Origin: Desulfuromonadaceae bacterium
Lineage (GTDB): Bacteria > Desulfobacterota > Desulfuromonadia > Desulfuromonadales > Syntrophotaleaceae
Assembly (NCBI GenBank): GCA_007134025.1
Contig: SLLR01000015.1
Location: 1 to 47,584 of the forward strand
Length of the DNA stretch: 47,584 nt
Direction: 5' to 3'
Within the stretch, counting starts at the first letter, position 1; each line of letters begins with the position of its first letter. Shown here piece after piece: positions 2,780-47,010 of this stretch. The notes beneath the pieces were generated by a model. That model did no database searches. It was not told the origin of the DNA and saw only the letters and a program-made list of their open reading frames with translations. A program made the translations under genes and the position numbers.

Positions 2780-5485
2780 ATGAATCAGGTATTGAACACT
2801 TTATTTGACGAGGAACTGATTGCGCGCTGCAGCCGTGATTATGCGGAGCAGCGCCCTCTGCTGCTGGATGCCGCCCGCACCTTTCTGGATCGAGGTCGCC
2901 AGGAGATCTATGAACGGCACCGGCAGGGTGGCGGAGGCCGGGAGATAGTGCGGCAGCTTAGTGTATTACACGACCGGTTTTTGCAGACCCTTTATCGGAC
3001 GGTGTCCAACAGTCTCCAACAAAAGAATGGTGACCGTTGCGTACTGCTGGCCCTGGGAGGCTATGGTCGCGGTGAACTGAACCCTCGCTCCGACATTGAC
3101 CTGATGTTTTATTATTGTCGCGGCGGCAAGGAATTCGCCGAGGCCCTGGCAGAGCGAATGCTCTATCTGTTTTGGGACCTGAGTTTAGATGTGGGATACA
3201 GCGTGCGATCGGACAAGGACTGTTCGGCCTTGTCCAAGGGAGATATTACCGTGCGCACGGCGCTTCTCGATGCTCGATATATTGCGGGGAGCCGAGAGTG
3301 TCTGGTCGAATTTGAAAAATCGGCCCTCGCCTTCGCCTACAGCACCAACCGTAAGGCCTTTCTGCAGGAGAAGGCTCGAGAGTACGCTCGGCGTAAGGAA
3401 AAATACGGTTCGTCGGTTTTTTTGCTGGAACCCAATATTAAAGAGGGAGAAGGGGGACTGAGGGATTTGCAGACCGCTTTGTGGATGGCTCAGGTCAAGT
3501 ACAAGTGCCGAAACCTCAAGGAGTTGATCGCTAAAGGGGTGCTCACTGAACGGCAAGCGATGGAGTTCGAACAGGCTCTGGATTACCTATGGCGCATCCG
3601 CAACGAACTTCATTATCTCTCCAAGGGCAAGAACGAGCAGCTGCGCTTCGACCAGCAGGAAAAAATAGCCGCCTTTCTTGACTATCGGGATCGTAGCGAG
3701 GCACCGGCCGTCGAGCAGTTCATGCAGGATTATTATGCTCATGCCACCCATGTTGAGCATGTAACCTCCTGGCTGATGGCCAAGGCACAGGGCATTGTGG
3801 ACGCTAAAGGTGGATTTCTGCGCAAAGGCGGCCGGCCTCTGCGTCGCCCCGTGGAGGGCGCCTTCTATGTCCATGGCGCCGAGCTGCGGGTAGATCGGGG
3901 ACAATTGTTCGAGGAAGATCCGACGCTGATGATGCGGGCTTTTCTTCTGGCCCAGCAGCAGGGGGTACGGCTGAGCCTTCAGATCAAGACCCTGATTCGT
4001 GAAAATCTCCACCGCATCACCTACAAGATCCGCTGTTCCCGGGCAATGACCGGCGACTTCATGGCGATCCTGCGTGCTCCCCTGCGGGTGGGTGAAACCC
4101 TGAGATTGATGCACCATCTGCGTTTTTTGAATTATTTTATTCCTGAATTCGGACAACTTTACTGCAAAGTCCAGCACGACGCCTACCATATCTACACGGT
4201 GGACTTTCATTCCCTGTTTACCCTGGAAGAACTGCTTAAAATCTGGCAAGGCGAATACGATGAATCTTTTCCCCTGCTCAGGGCAGTAGCCGAGGATATC
4301 GAGAAAAAAGAACTGCTGCTGCTGGCCGCGCTGCTGCACGATATCGGCAAGGGCCAGGGCCAGGATCATTGCAATAAAGGCGCGGACATGATTCCCACTA
4401 TTGCCCGGCGCCTGAACCTCAACAAAGAAGATGCCGGGCGACTGGAATTTCTGGTGCGTTATCACCTGCGCATGGCCCATATCTCCCAGCGAAGGGATCT
4501 TCACGACGACGGCCTGATCCTCCAGTTTGCCCGACAGATGGGCATGAGTGAAAACCTGCGCATGCTGTTTTTGCTGACCGTGGCCGACATCAGGGCGGTG
4601 GGCCCTGATGTGTGGTCAGCCTGGAAGGGAATGCTGCTTCAGGAGCTCTACGAAAAAACCTATGATGTTCTGGAGCGTGGCGATTTTTACCTGGACAGCC
4701 GTTCGGAGAGAATTCGCAACAGAAAGCGCAGGGTGGTGGAACATCTGAAAAACGAGTTCAGCGAGCGGGCCGTCAAGGAACGACTTAACCTGATGAGCAA
4801 CCGTTACCTGATCGCTCAGCGCTCGGCAAAAATCATCGAACATACTCGCCTGATCATGGAGCGCGGCAACCAGAGTCTGGGTTTTTCAGTGACTCATGAG
4901 CCGAATGTCGATTATTCCGAACTGATCATTGTGATGGTGGATGTTCCCGGTCTCTTCACTATGATCACCGGGGTCATGGCCGCTTTTAACATCAATATTC
5001 TCGGAGCCCAGATCTACACGCACCGAGACGGCCTTGCCTTCGATATCCTGCAGGTAAGGGGACCGCAGGGCAATCCCATTGTGTCGGCCGACAAATGGTC
5101 TCAGGTTCGTGACGCTCTCGAAGCGGTCATCAAAGGTAGCATACTCGTTGAAGAGCTGGTGCGACAGCGGCAAAAAAATACAACGTTCTTCGCCCGTTCC
5201 AGGCCGAGCAAGCCCAGTCGCATCGATATCGATAACGAGGTTTCTGAAGGCTATACGGTTGTGGATATCTATACCCATGACAAGGTCGGGCTGCTCTATG
5301 CCATCAGTCGCACTTTGCGCGACGCAGGACTCTATATCGGAGTTTCGAAAATTTCCACCAAGGTGGATCAGGTTGCCGATACTTTTTATGTCAGAGATAT
5401 TTTCGGACAGAAAATTACAGACCCGAAGCAGATCGAGGAACTGCGTGCTCGATTGCTGCAAACCATCGACGGCGTTACCGTTTAA
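2780..5485 (+). CDS. glnD: [Protein-PII] uridylyltransferase / uridylyl-removing enzyme GlnD
   Basis: GlnD is the cytoplasmic nitrogen sensor that adds UMP to PII signal proteins when glutamine is low and removes it when glutamine is high. At 901 residues it has the family's normal length. The domains read in order: a Pol-beta-type nucleotidyltransferase with GGYGRGELNPRSDIDL near residues 93-108; the GlnD/PII helical linker; an HD phosphohydrolase domain with LLHDIGKGQGQDH near 517-530; and two C-terminal ACT domains near 713-790 and 824-895, which bind glutamine. All signature residues are present. ATG 2780 is preceded by a modest GGTGGAGCAG; xerD follows after 22 bases. Confidence 0.97.
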   Translation: MNQVLNTLFDEELIARCSRDYAEQRPLLLDAARTFLDRGRQEIYERHRQGGGGREIVRQLSVLHDRFLQTLYRTVSNSLQQKNGDRCVLLALGGYGRGELNPRSDIDLMFYYCRGGKEFAEALAERMLYLFWDLSLDVGYSVRSDKDCSALSKGDITVRTALLDARYIAGSRECLVEFEKSALAFAYSTNRKAFLQEKAREYARRKEKYGSSVFLLEPNIKEGEGGLRDLQTALWMAQVKYKCRNLKELIAKGVLTERQAMEFEQALDYLWRIRNELHYLSKGKNEQLRFDQQEKIAAFLDYRDRSEAPAVEQFMQDYYAHATHVEHVTSWLMAKAQGIVDAKGGFLRKGGRPLRRPVEGAFYVHGAELRVDRGQLFEEDPTLMMRAFLLAQQQGVRLSLQIKTLIRENLHRITYKIRCSRAMTGDFMAILRAPLRVGETLRLMHHLRFLNYFIPEFGQLYCKVQHDAYHIYTVDFHSLFTLEELLKIWQGEYDESFPLLRAVAEDIEKKELLLLAALLHDIGKGQGQDHCNKGADMIPTIARRLNLNKEDAGRLEFLVRYHLRMAHISQRRDLHDDGLILQFARQMGMSENLRMLFLLTVADIRAVGPDVWSAWKGMLLQELYEKTYDVLERGDFYLDSRSERIRNRKRRVVEHLKNEFSERAVKERLNLMSNRYLIAQRSAKIIEHTRLIMERGNQSLGFSVTHEPNVDYSELIIVMVDVPGLFTMITGVMAAFNINILGAQIYTHRDGLAFDILQVRGPQGNPIVSADKWSQVRDALEAVIKGSILVEELVRQRQKNTTFFARSRPSKPSRIDIDNEVSEGYTVVDIYTHDKVGLLYAISRTLRDAGLYIGVSKISTKVDQVADTFYVRDIFGQKITDPKQIEELRARLLQTIDGVTV

Positions 5486-40701: not shown

Positions 40702-40922
40702 GGCACCGCGCAGCAAAAGGGAAATGCGCAGGCAAAATCGGGCGTAAAATCAACCAAAAACCGTATACAAGATAAATCCCCCTGTCCGGCGGGGATTTAT
40801 GTTGACAAAGGAACGAAGGCAATTTAAAAAAATAACCAGCTTTTCGGGGAGCGATTTTCACTCCGGAAAATCCTTACTTCGCCGCCCAGGCCGTGCCCCC
40901 CCTGAAAAGCGATTACTTATCA
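40702..40922. repeat. Dispersed repeat, copy A
   Basis: A roughly 220-bp non-coding repeat whose core GTTGACAAAGG ... GAAGGC ... TTAAAAAAATAACCAGC also occurs at copy B. It includes a hairpin (AAATCCCC pairing with GGGGATTT at about 40775-40798) and ends CTGAAAAGCGATTACTTATC, shared with copy C. Confidence 0.65.
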
Positions 40923-40924
40923 CC

Positions 40925-41005
40925 TCATCACCAACCAAAGGGGACTGTCCGGGCGAAAATCTGCAAGGCAACATCTTTTTTCCGGTACGGGATTTCAGCA
41001 TCTAG
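40925..41005 (+). pseudogene. Degenerate C-terminal fragment of a metallophosphoesterase gene
   Basis: The bases match the end of the intact phosphoesterase gene (45891-45970) and its 3' flank through about 41035. After a one-base insertion near 40943 the frame reads PGENLQGNIFFPVRDFSI and stop, against PGEDLPGNSFSPDRIFSI in the intact protein. No upstream part of the gene remains. Confidence 0.7.
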
Positions 41006-41102
41006 CCCCTTCAGGCAAGACAAGAATAAGAAAACCAAGCCACGATACGCTGCGCTTTCGAAGAACTCGCATCGATTTCATTCACTCAAAGGAGAAAACA
41101 CC

Positions 41103-41723
41103 ATGGTTCAAGCACCTGAACTGCACAAAGCCAACATGCCCTACACGGTCATCAACCGGCCCTACACGGCAAAGGACATTCCTTCCTGTAACTTTGGACC
41201 CATCGGCCTTCTGGGATTCGGCATGACGACCATCCTGCTCAATATCCACAATGCCGGTTTCTATCCGGTCAGCGCCATGATCATGGCCATGGGAATTTTC
41301 TATGGCGGCATCGCGCAGATCATCGCCGGCATCCTGGGTTCGCGCAAGGGTAGCACTTTCGCAGCCACCGCCTTCATCTCCTACGGCTTCTTCTGGCTGA
41401 CCCTGGTCGCCATCTGGGTCATGCCCGAACTCGGCTGGACCGACCCAACGCCAGCGGGATACATGGGGTGGTATCTGTTCATCTGGGGTCTTTTCTCATT
41501 CTTCATGTTCATCGGCACCTTGAAGGCGAATCGTGTTCTGCAGATCATTTTCTTTTTGCTCTTCATCCTGTTCTTTTTGTTGGCCATCCACTTCTGGACG
41601 GGATCGGAAATGATCCTCAAGCTGGCCGGCTGGGAAGGTATCCTGACCGGGGCCTGTGCTTTCTATCTGGCTATTGCCGAAGTCCTGAACGAGCAGTTCG
41701 GGCGTGAAGTCCTGCCCATTTAG
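41103..41723 (+). CDS. satP: Acetate uptake transporter, GPR1/FUN34/SatP (YaaH) family
   Basis: The 206-residue inner-membrane protein is expected to carry acetate or succinate with protons. The family motif lies near residue 31 (NFGPIGLLGFGMTTILLN, followed by IHNAG). Six hydrophobic segments follow, including AMIMAMGIFYGGIAQIIAG and VLQIIFFLLFILFFLLAI. ATG 41103 follows AAAGGAGAAAACACC. It is bracketed by repeats (copy A and the phosphoesterase remnant upstream, hairpin and copy C downstream), so it has been moved or duplicated as a cassette. The Cache-containing protein downstream may sense the same acids. Confidence 0.92.
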   Translation: MVQAPELHKANMPYTVINRPYTAKDIPSCNFGPIGLLGFGMTTILLNIHNAGFYPVSAMIMAMGIFYGGIAQIIAGILGSRKGSTFAATAFISYGFFWLTLVAIWVMPELGWTDPTPAGYMGWYLFIWGLFSFFMFIGTLKANRVLQIIFFLLFILFFLLAIHFWTGSEMILKLAGWEGILTGACAFYLAIAEVLNEQFGREVLPI

Positions 41724-41731
41724 AACTTTTC

Positions 41732-41768
41732 GGGGCCTGGAGGGGGAAATACCCCCCCTCCAGGCCCC
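41732..41768 (+). terminator. Very stable hairpin after satP
   Basis: GGGGCCTGGAGGGGG (41732-41746) pairs perfectly with 41754-41768 (15 pairs). There is no T-run, so it may protect the 3' end or stop the polymerase without being a classical terminator. Confidence 0.65.
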
Positions 41769-41786
41769 GGACAATGCCTTGGTCTG

Positions 41787-41865
41787 GCGGCTTTTCACTC
41801 CAACAAACCCTTCGCCCTCCAAGCCGTGACCCCTCTTAAAAGCGATTACTTATTACCCACCATCA
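41787..41865. repeat. Dispersed repeat, partial copy C
   Basis: TTTTCACTCC ... CTTCGCC ... CCGTG ... AAAAGCGATTACTTAT matches the 3' third of copy A (40854-40920). Only this part is present. Confidence 0.55.
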
Positions 41866-42124
41866 CCGATCACCTTCTCTTCTTCTCTTATCTTTCTGAC
41901 CTGGATCGAGGCCATCCCTGTCTTCTTTCGTTAAACTTCCCTTTTCTTCCGCTGGCCGGGGCCTCCTCAGCCGCATTTGAAAAAACATCCCTTAGGAGTC
42001 TGTCGGTAGTGGAGATTTACGGCAGGCCGCCGCCGGAAATCATTTGGCAGGAAAAACGGTCAACCATTCTTTTGACCACAGCTGGGCGGGCCAGCAAGAG
42101 CCGAGCATCACCCTCAATCGAGTA

Positions 42125-42338
42125 GGGACGGCGCAGCGACAGGAAAGGGTGCGGGCGAAAAACCAACTAAAAACCATGCACAATAAAAATACCCACTGCT
42201 CGGGGGGGGGGATTTTTGTTGACAAAGGGGCGAAGGCGAATTAAAAAAATAACCAGCTATTCGGTTGGCCATATTACCCCGGCAGACCTTTACTTCGCCA
42301 CCCAATCCACGACCTGCTGAAAAGCAGTTGCTTGTAAC
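42125..42338. repeat. Dispersed repeat, copy B
   Basis: It aligns with copy A along its whole length: GCGCAGC, AACCAACTAAAAACC, TTTTTGTTGACAAAGG, TTAAAAAAATAACCAGC, CTTTACTTCGCC and CTGCTGAAAAGCAG. A run of ten Gs occupies the hairpin position (about 42202-42211). The copies differ by many substitutions, so the duplication is old. Confidence 0.65.
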
Positions 42339-42435
42339 ATTTTCTGATACTTCCGCACTGATGTTTCGAAGCCGAATGCACGAAGGCCGAAACTTTTCCA
42401 AACCGGCTCCGACTTGAAGGGTTGTTGAAAATGCG

Positions 42436-42558
42436 GCGGGAGATTGCCTTTGACAGGATAAAGTCCGACGCGCGGTGCACCTCAAAGGTCGCAGCCACCG
42501 GGGGGCGTTAGGCGGACTTTTTCCTGCGAACCTTGCGGAGCTCTCCCGCAGCCTTTTT
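42436..42558 (+). promoter_or_regulatory. Structured leader with competing terminator/antiterminator stems
   Basis: One structure nests AAAGTCCG (42460-42467) with CGGACTTT (42513-42520), ACGC (42468) with GCGT (42505), and CGGTG with CACCG inside; GCGGGAGA (42436-42443) can close it by pairing with TCTCCCGC (42542-42549). In the other structure TGCGG (42534-42538) pairs with CCGCA (42546-42550) and is followed by TTTTT (42554-42558), a terminator. The two cannot coexist because 42546-42549 are shared. I see no clear promoter upstream. The coding region starts 59 bases later. Confidence 0.45.
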
Positions 42559-42616
42559 AGGGCATAATCACGCGAGCCGCTTTTCACAAACACCATAAAG
42601 CAAGGCAAAAGCGCCC

Positions 42617-45169
42617 ATGAACCTAAAGCCCATCAACTGGCAGTTATTTCTCCTGCGCATCGCCCTGCCGGCCGTTGTCTCAGTGATCTTTTTTATCGGC
42701 CTGATCCTCTTTTTCGTCATCCCGACTTTCGAGAAGGCGGTGATGAACGAGCGGCGGGGACAGATCAAACAGCTGACCCAAACCGCTCTGACTGTGCTGT
42801 CCGATTTCCACAACGAGCAGGTGACAGGGCGGCTCTCCGATATGGAAGCGCAGGATATGGCGCGCACGGCCATCAGAAACCTGCGCTACGGCGATGACGG
42901 CCTGGATTATTTCTGGTTGCTCGATACCCACCCGCGCATGATCGCGCATCCTTTCAGATCCGATCTGGAAACCACCGACGTCACCGACTTCGAGGATCCT
43001 AAAGGCAAGAAACTTTTTCTTGAATTCACCCGGGTGGTGAAGGAGGAGGGAGCGGGCTACGTCGATTATATGTGGCAGGGGAGGGATGATCCCACGAAGA
43101 TCGTTCCCAAGCTCTCCTATGTAAAAGGCTTTGAACCCTGGGGCTGGATTGTCGGTACCGGCATCTATATCGAGGATGTCAGCGAAGAAATTGGAAATCT
43201 TACCACCGACATCCTCATCGTTTCAATTGCCTTCATCGTTTTGATCGGCGGCATCATTCTCTTCATCGTCCTCCAGAGCGTGCGCATCGAAAAAGCGCGT
43301 CAAACGGCCGAAACCAACCTGGTTGAATCGAAGGACAAATACCAGGCTCTGGTCGAGGCTTCGACCGACGGGCTGGTCATGTTGCTCGACAACCGCGACA
43401 TGATTGCCAACAAAACGATGGTTTCGATGTTGGGGTACAGTGAATCCGAATTCGCCCTGCTCAGCCTTTTTGACATCCTGGGTGATCAGGATGACGACAG
43501 TCCGGTAATAAAGTTCATGCAGGCTTTGGCGACAGGCCAGCAGGTTCCGGCTCAATTTGAGGCCAAACTGCTGAAAAAAGACGGAACTGTGATCGACGTC
43601 CTGTTGACGGCGTCAACGATTGATTTTTCCGGTCGCCCCGGGATCATCCTGATTGCCCGCGATGTCAGTAAATTTAAGCAGACGGAACGCAAACGCGCCG
43701 ACGAGGAACGCGATTCCCTGATCGCTGAACTCCAGATGTCGCTACATTTTCTGAACCACAGCATCAAGGATCTGGCGCACGACGCTGTCTCCTGCGGCAT
43801 GCAGACACCGATCCGCCAGGCCGCCCTTTTAATGGATCAGACGAAGCCTTGCGCCATCCTGGTCACGGCCGAGGACGGCCGCACAGTCGGTATCGTTACC
43901 GACCACGACATGCGTAAGCGCGCCATCGCCAGACAGATCGACCTCAATTCCCCCGTAGTAAACATCATGACCGCGCCGATCATCTCGATTTCCGACCGCG
44001 CCTTGGTGTTCGAGGCCGCCATGATCATGCACGATAAGAAAATTGCTTTTCTTGCGGTCGAGGATGCCGACGGCAATATTTGCGGCCTGATCAACCGCTC
44101 CGACCTCCTGGAGATACAGGGCTATTCCGCCGTGTCGCTGATCCAGTCGATACGACGGGCCGAAACACCGGGTGAAATCGCCGCGCGGCGCGACAAGCTG
44201 CCTACGCTGGTCAAAGCCATTCTCGACAGCGGCAGCCGACCGCGGCACGTGACTCGCGTCATTTCCAACCTGTCCGACGTCATTATCCAGAAGCTGATCA
44301 ACCTCGCTATCAGCGAACTCGGGGATCCGCCTGCAAGCTTCGCCTTCATTGTGATGGGAAGCGTCGGGCGTGAAGAACAGACCCTGTGCACTGACCAGGA
44401 CAACGCGATCATCTTCGACGACAACGTGCCCGACGACCAGATCGAAGCCGCCCGCGATTACTTCCTGGCCATGAGCCGCAAAGTCTGCGGCTGGCTGAAC
44501 GATGTCGGCTACAGCTACTGTGATGGCAATATCATGGCGCAGAATCCGGACTGGTGTCAGCCACTGGAGACCTGGAAATATTATTTCAGCCGCTGGATCA
44601 GCACCGCCGAACCGCAGGACATGCTCGAAATCAACATCTTCTTTGATTTCCGCTGCGTCTTCGGCGACAAGGGGCTGGTCGATCGATTGCGTAAACACGT
44701 AGACTTGGCTTGGCAGCAGAATCCGCTGTTTATTGTCCTGTTAGCCGAGAATGCTTTCCGTTACAAGGCCCCGCTCTCCATTTTCGGCAGCATCGTCACG
44801 TCGGCTCCCAGCGATCTGCCGGACAGTTTCGAAATCAAATCGGCGATGATGCCGATCGTCAATATCGCCCGCGCCCAGGCCCTCAAGCACCATATCAGCG
44901 AAACGAACACCATGGATCGCGTTCAACGCCTCTACGAGCAGGGGGTTTTTTCGACCCAAGAATACAGCGAGATCGAGCTCCTGTACGACTTCCTGATGCA
45001 ACTGCGTCTCAAACACCAGGCCATTGAGGCCAAGAGCGGTCAAACCATCGACAATTACATCAGCCTGAAATCCATGACCCAAATCGAGCAGATGACCCTG
45101 AAAAGCGTCTTTAATAAAATCAACGACTTTGTAACTAAGCTGCGGCAAGACTTCACGGGAACGACGTAA
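42617..45169 (+). CDS. Membrane-bound Cache-PAS-CBS-DUF294 nucleotidyltransferase signalling protein
   Basis: This 850-residue protein joins a sensor to a nucleotidyltransferase. TM1 (residues about 13-37), a periplasmic single Cache domain with YFWLLDTHPRMIAHPF near 98 and FEPWGWIVGTGIYIED near 174, TM2 (about 199-222, LIVSIAFIVLIGGIILFIVL), then PAS (about 238-350), a CBS pair (about 390-515), the Pol-beta-like DUF294 domain with GSVGREEQTLCTDQDNA near 580, and DUF294_C to the end. The GS-GR-EQ and TDQDNA motifs are those of active nucleotidyltransferases such as GlnD. The Cache subtype resembles those that bind small carboxylates. Target protein unknown; regulation of acetate uptake is inferred from the neighbour satP. 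ATG 42617 has no strong ribosome site (AAGGCAAAAGCGCCC). Confidence 0.88.
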   Translation: MNLKPINWQLFLLRIALPAVVSVIFFIGLILFFVIPTFEKAVMNERRGQIKQLTQTALTVLSDFHNEQVTGRLSDMEAQDMARTAIRNLRYGDDGLDYFWLLDTHPRMIAHPFRSDLETTDVTDFEDPKGKKLFLEFTRVVKEEGAGYVDYMWQGRDDPTKIVPKLSYVKGFEPWGWIVGTGIYIEDVSEEIGNLTTDILIVSIAFIVLIGGIILFIVLQSVRIEKARQTAETNLVESKDKYQALVEASTDGLVMLLDNRDMIANKTMVSMLGYSESEFALLSLFDILGDQDDDSPVIKFMQALATGQQVPAQFEAKLLKKDGTVIDVLLTASTIDFSGRPGIILIARDVSKFKQTERKRADEERDSLIAELQMSLHFLNHSIKDLAHDAVSCGMQTPIRQAALLMDQTKPCAILVTAEDGRTVGIVTDHDMRKRAIARQIDLNSPVVNIMTAPIISISDRALVFEAAMIMHDKKIAFLAVEDADGNICGLINRSDLLEIQGYSAVSLIQSIRRAETPGEIAARRDKLPTLVKAILDSGSRPRHVTRVISNLSDVIIQKLINLAISELGDPPASFAFIVMGSVGREEQTLCTDQDNAIIFDDNVPDDQIEAARDYFLAMSRKVCGWLNDVGYSYCDGNIMAQNPDWCQPLETWKYYFSRWISTAEPQDMLEINIFFDFRCVFGDKGLVDRLRKHVDLAWQQNPLFIVLLAENAFRYKAPLSIFGSIVTSAPSDLPDSFEIKSAMMPIVNIARAQALKHHISETNTMDRVQRLYEQGVFSTQEYSEIELLYDFLMQLRLKHQAIEAKSGQTIDNYISLKSMTQIEQMTLKSVFNKINDFVTKLRQDFTGTT

Positions 45170-45205: not shown

Positions 45206-45970
45206 ATGAACATCCAGATCCTCTCCGATTTGCACTTCGAGGCACAAGGCGAAATTGTGATTCCTCAGGTTGAATCCGATCTGATTGTTCTGGCCGGCGA
45301 TATTGGCGAGGGGCTGGATGGCATCCATTGGGCGCTACGTCAGTCCCGTGCGCTGGGCAAGCCGATTCTCTATGTATTCGGCAACCATGAGCACTACAGG
45401 CAGAGTTTTCCCGGCCTTATCACCGAAGCCAAGCTGCTCTGCCACGGAAGCGATGTGCATGTGCTCGAACGTAATCGTTATGTCAAGGACGGCATCCGCT
45501 TCCTCGGGTGCACGTTATGGACTGATTTTCACCTGTTCGGGCCTGAACTCGCTCATACCTGCAAGGAAGTTGCACGCATCTACATGCCCGACTATGTCTC
45601 GGTGATCAAGCAAAACCAGGAACTTTTACAACCGGAAGACACCTTTTGGCTCTTTGAGCAATCGAGCAAATGGCTGCAACACGAACTCGACCAGGACTGG
45701 CAGGGAAAGACCGTCGTTGCCACCCACCACGCACCGAGCAACCGTTCAAATGACCCCAGAAATGCCGACGATCCCATGTCTGCCTCGTTCATCAGCAACC
45801 TGGACCACCTCATCAATTGCCAGAACATCGACGCCTGGGTTCACGGCCACACCCACTTCAACATCGATTACCTGATCCGCAAGACGCGGGTCATCACCAA
45901 CCAAAGGGGCTATCCCGGCGAAGATTTACCGGGCAACTCCTTTTCCCCGGACCGGATTTTCAGTATCTAA
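45206..45970 (+). CDS. Calcineurin-like metallophosphoesterase
   Basis: The 254-residue cytoplasmic phosphoesterase has the standard metal-binding blocks: SDLHFE (residues 7-12), LAGDIGEG (near 31), FGNHEHY (near 59), THHAPSN (near 173) and HGHTHFN (near 214). The family covers nucleotidases, cyclic-nucleotide and protein phosphodiesterases; the substrate is not evident. It begins 36 bases after the nucleotidyltransferase and is likely co-transcribed, so it could remove what that enzyme adds (hypothesis). A broken copy of its 3' end lies upstream of satP. Confidence 0.88.
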   Translation: MNIQILSDLHFEAQGEIVIPQVESDLIVLAGDIGEGLDGIHWALRQSRALGKPILYVFGNHEHYRQSFPGLITEAKLLCHGSDVHVLERNRYVKDGIRFLGCTLWTDFHLFGPELAHTCKEVARIYMPDYVSVIKQNQELLQPEDTFWLFEQSSKWLQHELDQDWQGKTVVATHHAPSNRSNDPRNADDPMSASFISNLDHLINCQNIDAWVHGHTHFNIDYLIRKTRVITNQRGYPGEDLPGNSFSPDRIFSI

Positions 45971-46650: not shown

Positions 46651-47010
46651 ATGAAAAATCCATTTTTTTACACGCTGGTCGTCATTGGAGTGATGGGATA
46701 TTTACTCTTGGCGAGAACTGCCGTTGCCCAAAAGCACCCATCCCCCACAGACAAACCACCGCAGGTGACGGATCAGAAGGAAGAGTACCCCGATCCTCAG
46801 GAATTTCTCGAACGAAAGGCTAAGAAGGCAATTCCCCCAGCTCCTCGGGCTATCCAACAACAAAAGGCACAACCCCATGATCCTTGGAGCACCAAGGGTG
46901 AAACGCATCAGCCTTGGGATCCTTTGAGCACCAAGGGTGAAACGCATAAGCCCAATGATCCTTGGAGCACCAAGGGTGAAACGCATAAGCCCAATGATCC
47001 TTGGAATTAG
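46651..47010 (+). CDS. Secreted protein with 13-residue tandem repeats, unknown function
   Basis: The 119-residue product starts with a Sec-type signal (hydrophobic residues 7-20, then ARTAVAQ, cleavage about residue 26). A proline/lysine-rich linker follows. The C-terminus is built of a 13-residue unit, DPWSTKGETHKPN, in three copies plus a partial fourth (DPWN). The repeats are 39 bases long and almost identical at the DNA level. I recognise no family. The ribosome site AAGGAGAAAAGGCC is strong, so expression is plausible. Possible roles such as peptide interaction or envelope anchoring are speculation. Confidence 0.78.
   Translation: MKNPFFYTLVVIGVMGYLLLARTAVAQKHPSPTDKPPQVTDQKEEYPDPQEFLERKAKKAIPPAPRAIQQQKAQPHDPWSTKGETHQPWDPLSTKGETHKPNDPWSTKGETHKPNDPWN
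46879..47007 (+). repeat. 39-bp tandem repeat, 3 copies plus partial
   Basis: Units begin at 46879, 46918, 46957 and 46996 (partial, 12 bases). Units 2 and 3 are the most alike; the first ends CAGCCTTGG instead of AAGCCCAAT. The repeats keep the reading frame, so copy number can vary without breaking the gene. Confidence 0.9.

Follow-up and report, generated by a model that had tools for sequence, protein, structure and literature searches.

Cache-domain receptors are known to feed several kinds of output, including chemotaxis signalling, histidine kinases, diguanylate cyclases and others. In PscD, bound propionate is contacted by Tyr90, Trp92, His103, Phe126, Tyr143, Trp145 and Lys156, and McpP and Adeh_3718, which bind acetate, have identical residues (PMC5062169). 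On the side of the DUF294 nucleotidyltransferases, the CrbS/R (MxtR/ErdR) acetate regulon of Pseudomonas includes Pflu5625 and PP_0354/PP_0353, which adjoin actP/yjcH in some species; deletion of the exonuclease PP_0353 impairs growth on pyruvate, and deletion of the nucleotidyltransferase PP_0354 does not (PMC5715377, PMC9927547). In the open-licence literature that we searched, we found no biochemical activity, ligand or target for any DUF294 protein. The metallophosphoesterase PptH is a phosphodiesterase, with no phosphomonoester activity, which cleaves the phosphodiester joining phosphopantetheine to protein (PMC8557913).

We analyzed a window of 47,584 nucleotides, the whole stretch given here, which contains an uninterrupted 850-codon frame with an ATG start at 42617-45169 (+ strand). 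The ORF call, Pfam and an AlphaFold model together give its product the layout TM-sCache_2-TM-PAS-CBS-CBS-DUF294-DUF294_C. Two hydrophobic, predicted membrane-spanning segments found by hydropathy (aa 6-44, 42632-42748, and aa 191-226, 43187-43294) flank an sCache_2 extracytoplasmic sensor (aa 43-192, 42743-43192; Pfam E 2e-39). They are followed by a PAS domain (aa 241-351, 43337-43669; E 3e-9), a CBS pair (about aa 385-500, 43769-44116; E 1e-16, two CBS motifs ending at 500), the DUF294 nucleotidyltransferase core (aa 527-667, 44195-44617; E 3e-47) and the DUF294_C helical substrate-binding domain (aa 704-846, 44726-45154; E 3e-33), and all these assignments exceed the curated Pfam cut-offs. 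An AlphaFold2 model built from a 57-sequence alignment had a mean pLDDT of 85 and a pTM of 0.54, so the individual domains are reliable and their relative placement is not. Comparison of the model using VIA-align matched the Cache domain to 4k08 (Z 23.7) and 5g4y (Z 23.4), and returned Z values of about 14 for PAS and about 13.7 for CBS. The initial annotation had read the same order of domains, which is thus upheld, and other folds for residues 38-195 or 238-350 are excluded by the domain search and the structure model. Pfam searches of the receptor found neither HisKA nor HATPase_c, ruling out a histidine-kinase output, and found no RNA-binding domain and, at E values up to 1, no cNMP domain. 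The cNMP-CBS-DUF294 arrangement, which the initial annotation had called the familiar one, is present in loci L024, L029 and L081 (cNMP_binding E 8e-9 to 8e-11); the idea that TM-Cache-TM-PAS has replaced the cNMP module holds as a comparison and implies no evolutionary direction. A defence-system role was rejected, with no PADLOC match for the receptor or the adjoining phosphoesterase.

Scanning a single genome for each species, we obtained 80 loci, about 60 of which carry Cache and nucleotidyltransferase domains in a single frame. Full-length relatives number 56, from more than ten phyla, and form with the window copy the 57-sequence conservation set. Record titles place relatives in the Elusimicrobia, Bacteroidetes, Ignavibacteria, Chlorobi, KSB1, Krumholzibacteriia, Latescibacterota, Fibrobacter, Acidobacteria, Aminicenantes, Chrysiogenales and Proteobacteria, and the nearest, in a ‘Proteobacteria bacterium’ MAG (L004), is 75% identical to the receptor. 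The architecture had been thought unusual; this census shows instead that it is common, and yet we found no paper in the open-licence literature describing TM-Cache-TM-PAS-CBS-DUF294, although a description elsewhere is possible. It is therefore widespread and apparently undescribed, a novel coupling of familiar parts. Besides this wide distribution, the initial annotation had missed the assignment of the sensor to C2/C3 carboxylates, the PptH-like neighbour with its conserved linkage and the SatP gene upstream, all of which are supported here. Most relatives are 950-990 aa long and have an extra PAS domain (checked in L012). Short forms of 687-700 aa (L060, L061, L062, L066 and L068) have a Cache-PAS-DUF294 layout, apparently without CBS domains (confirmed using Pfam for L060), so Cache and nucleotidyltransferase stay together even where the CBS pair is missing. 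Within the host's class, the full-length form occurs in only about 7 of 194 genomes and was not seen in the single genome of the same genus that we analyzed (89% complete); thus, the gene is patchy within the class.

The sensor retains all seven of the PscD contacts. Alignment to 5g4y identified their equivalents as Y98, W100, H111, F134, Y151, W153 and K165, of which six are invariant in 57/57 sequences and W100 is found in 56/57, with Phe once. The domain superimposes on 4k08 at 1.2 Å with 38% identity. Mean pairwise identity among relatives is 60% for Cache, 43% for the nucleotidyltransferase and 33% for PAS. A sensor is not usually the part that varies least, as Cache does among the domains compared here, and this suggests a single conserved ligand type. 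Judged from these pocket residues, the ligand is very probably a C2/C3 carboxylate. At loci L099-L102, the receptor lies next to a histidine kinase that also has a Cache domain and to an NtrC-type response regulator, so that one kind of sensor is connected to two adjacent outputs.

The closest folds to the output module were the GlnE N-domain (1v4a; VIA-align Z 26.9 over 319 residues), DrrA (Z 25.1) and the GlnE C-domain (Z 24.8). The GlnE domains and DrrA are enzymes that put AMP on a protein or take it off. Weak links in sequence point the same way, with matches to GlnD_UR_UTase in the receptor (E 0.003) and to GlnE in L060 (E 6e-5). A catalytic motif, G581-X11-D593-X-D595 (44357-44401), and a third catalytic-type aspartate, D677 in FFDFR (44645-44647), are invariant in all 57 sequences, which bears out the earlier statement that the active-site residues are kept. 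We consider it likely that the receptor catalyzes nucleotidyl transfer; whether its substrate is a protein is more evenly balanced, and we lean slightly towards it. The same contig encodes a distant relative of the output module, a GlnD-like PII uridylyltransferase (GlnD_UR_UTase, HD, ACT), at 2780-5485 of the window.

Carboxylate transporters accompany the receptor. In the window, a SatP/AceTr_1 acetate uptake transporter lies upstream at 40893-41723 (+ strand; Pfam; NCBIfam NF038013, 254.9 bits against a cut-off of 50), its core protein probably starting near 41103. About 0.9 kb (41731-42616) separates it from the receptor, and this gap begins with a perfect 16-bp inverted repeat forming a terminator-like hairpin 3' of SatP (41731-41769); SatP is therefore probably a separate transcription unit from the receptor. 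The gap had no Rfam match, and neither of its two ORFs (41826-42125, + strand, and 42114-42608, − strand), both probably spurious, matched Pfam. Elsewhere, an SSS symporter of the ActP, MctC or VC_2705 type lies no more than six genes away in 41/61 loci, mostly with a DUF485 or DUF4212 small partner. SatP is nearby in 3/61 loci, the window included, and also in L132, and a lactate MFS transporter is present in L097 and L098. Thus, three unrelated families of C2/C3-carboxylate transporter are found repeatedly near the receptor. In about half of the loci, we also observed a porin-like outer-membrane protein of roughly 400 aa beside the symporter (for example L016:13388-14617 and L005:11274-12401, DcaP-like in L005). 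At 46651-47010 in the window, a small ORF without a Pfam match starts with a signal-like segment and contains tandem DPWSTKGETHKPN-type repeats.

The tight linkage of the SSS symporter and its small subunit to the receptor would also fit a non-catalytic nucleotidyltransferase module, in which case the receptor would bind the symporter in a ligand-gated manner, for instance via the DUF485/DUF4212 subunit. We think this very unlikely: all of the catalytic-type residues are invariant (57/57), the linkage to a phosphoesterase would be left unexplained, and the transporter near the receptor in the window, L004 and L132 is SatP, not an SSS symporter. The receptor could otherwise control a process other than carboxylate metabolism, such as nitrogen control, chemotaxis or general stress, with acetate merely the cue that accounts for the nearby transporters. 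DUF294 is related to the nitrogen-control proteins GlnE and GlnD, and at L099-L102 the nearest genes are the kinase and regulator, with no recognised transporter; the recurrence of three unrelated carboxylate transporter families at receptor loci nevertheless makes this quite unlikely.

A metallophosphoesterase gene lies 36 bp 3' of the receptor at 45206-45970 (+ strand; Pfam). Its model, built from 18 sequences of the window's own group only, matched PptH (6unc) with Z 23.1 over 242 residues, the next match scoring 17.4, and PptH was its sole sequence match in the PDB. Residues D8, H10, G31, D32, G59, N60, H61, H174, G214, H215 and H217 of its motifs are invariant. A phosphoesterase lies no more than three genes away in 46/61 loci, often in translational coupling, and is the immediate neighbour in 42/61. 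Counted by position, phosphoesterases make up 43/113 immediate neighbours versus 1/250 genes at a distance of 4-6 (Fisher 7e-24, uncorrected for kinship and, because the loci are related, not a strict probability), and this dependence on position rules out chance adjacency. The Cache histidine kinase loci L070-L083 mostly lack a phosphoesterase, the single motif match being at +4 in L082, and three further loci from the host's phylum (L133, L134 and L135) show the same linkage as the window. The phosphoesterase may be upstream and co-directional, downstream and co-directional with 4-bp overlaps, or downstream and convergent; ATGA-type 4-bp overlaps with the receptor occur in several lineages, and in many Bacteroidota loci the gene is convergent, not co-directional. 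These phosphoesterases form several divergent groups, with 15-20% identity to the window copy outside its own group, and such varied placement and divergence favour repeated selection over a single inherited block.

PptH cuts a phosphodiester linked to protein, and this is the type of bond that any protein de-nucleotidylating enzyme must cut. A PptH-like fold leaves the substrate of the phosphoesterase unfixed, and that it erases the receptor's modification is a possibility which we rate a little below even. Several kinds of phosphoesterase or nuclease as partners would also be expected if the nucleotidyltransferase made a diffusible nucleotide second messenger, degraded by the neighbouring phosphoesterase or by the exonuclease of the soluble relatives. 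Those relatives contain nucleotide-binding cNMP and CBS domains, and some metallophosphoesterases, such as Rv0805 (Z about 15 to the window copy), are cyclic-nucleotide phosphodiesterases. Nonetheless, we regard a second messenger as unlikely, since the nucleotidyltransferase fold best matches protein adenylyltransferases and carries a GlnD/GlnE-type helical domain, and since we saw no conserved gene for a separate effector among the neighbour clusters. Near Cache-type receptors lacking a phosphoesterase (L012, L015, L017, L033 and L073), we observed an AP_endonuc_2 TIM-barrel gene, and at L029:7673-8542 an AP-endonuclease-type TIM-barrel gene overlaps that of a soluble nucleotidyltransferase; this TIM barrel may be a third type of partner.

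The soluble relatives have a partner of their own. On contig C139, the same genome encodes a second DUF294 protein (L084:7178-9085), a soluble CBS-CBS-DUF294 form without Cache and with no detectable cNMP domain, whose gene is abutted by that of an RNase_T exonuclease (L084:6498-9085 for the pair). Elsewhere, cNMP-type relatives have an exonuclease partner in L081 and several of L103-L131, and an SSS symporter in L024 and L081. An iterative HMM search found an RNase_T/DnaQ-like exonuclease in 0/61 Cache-type loci, which rules out for these receptors the partner used by the soluble relatives. The deletion phenotypes of PP_0353 and PP_0354 would be as expected of an eraser, whose loss is harmful, and a writer, whose loss is harmless. 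Among enzymes tried on SelO substrates, RNase Z is a de-AMPylase and RNase T is not (PMC12663964); therefore, the presence of a nuclease or phosphoesterase next door does not establish it as the eraser. Such exonucleases also bring to mind an RNA nucleotidyltransferase, acting on tRNA or mRNA under control of the sensor, with the exonuclease or phosphoesterase trimming the added nucleotides and the carboxylate genes controlled post-transcriptionally; poly(A) polymerases belong to the polymerase-beta superfamily. With no RNA-binding domain found, GlnE and DrrA as the closest folds, and a receptor anchored in the membrane beside transporters, we consider this highly improbable.

Our preferred reading, to which we give close to an even chance, is that the protein is a transmembrane receptor for C2/C3 carboxylates which adds a nucleotide reversibly to a cytoplasmic target, the phosphoesterase acting as eraser. 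An acetate-like extracytoplasmic ligand would enter the Cache pocket, and the signal would be relayed through the membrane helices and PAS to the CBS pair, which would integrate it with the state of the adenine nucleotides. The GlnE/GlnD-type nucleotidyltransferase activity would be set accordingly, AMP (or UMP) would be attached to a cytoplasmic protein involved in taking up or activating carboxylates, and the adjoining PptH-like metallophosphoesterase would strip the nucleotide off again. The convergent phosphoesterase genes of many Bacteroidota loci, the divergence among the phosphoesterase groups, and the gap and hairpin between SatP and the receptor count against this reading. More broadly, and more tentatively, we speculate that receptor nucleotidyltransferases are a widespread, undescribed form of one-protein transmembrane signalling, in which an acetate-like cue is written as a nucleotide tag and erased by a PptH-like neighbour, with a DnaQ-like exonuclease or AP-endonuclease-type TIM barrel as the eraser beside relatives. 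If this is true, nucleotidyl transfer as the output of a Cache receptor would be an additional kind of transmembrane signalling, and the partner genes would merge the function of DUF294 and the role of PP_0353 in growth on pyruvate and acetate into one testable writer/eraser hypothesis.

The receptor can be set against four kinds of known system. Like PscD, McpP and Adeh_3718, it has a Cache fold with the seven contact residues for C2/C3 carboxylates, and its Cache domain is similar to that of the histidine kinase MctS (E 4e-25); the outputs of these four proteins are MCPs or histidine kinases, whereas that of the receptor is a nucleotidyltransferase-type module. It resembles Pflu5625/PP_0354 in its CBS-CBS-DUF294-DUF294_C core with an intact active site, in its linked acetate symporter genes and in its phosphodiester-cleaving partner gene. 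In contrast, the Pseudomonas proteins are soluble, with a cNMP domain and an RNase_T/DnaQ-like exonuclease in place of TM-Cache-TM-PAS and a metallophosphoesterase. The likeness of the window phosphoesterase to PptH lies in its metallophosphoesterase fold (Z 23.1, 242 residues); the two are only 16% identical, and the locus has no phosphopantetheine context. Finally, the receptor has in common with GlnE and GlnD the nucleotidyltransferase fold, the GX11DXD motif, a helical C-terminal domain and, as we predict for it, control by a metabolite. However, GlnE and GlnD are soluble proteins with a built-in removing domain (a second nucleotidyltransferase or HD), whereas the receptor has an extracytoplasmic sensor and its putative remover is encoded by a separate gene.
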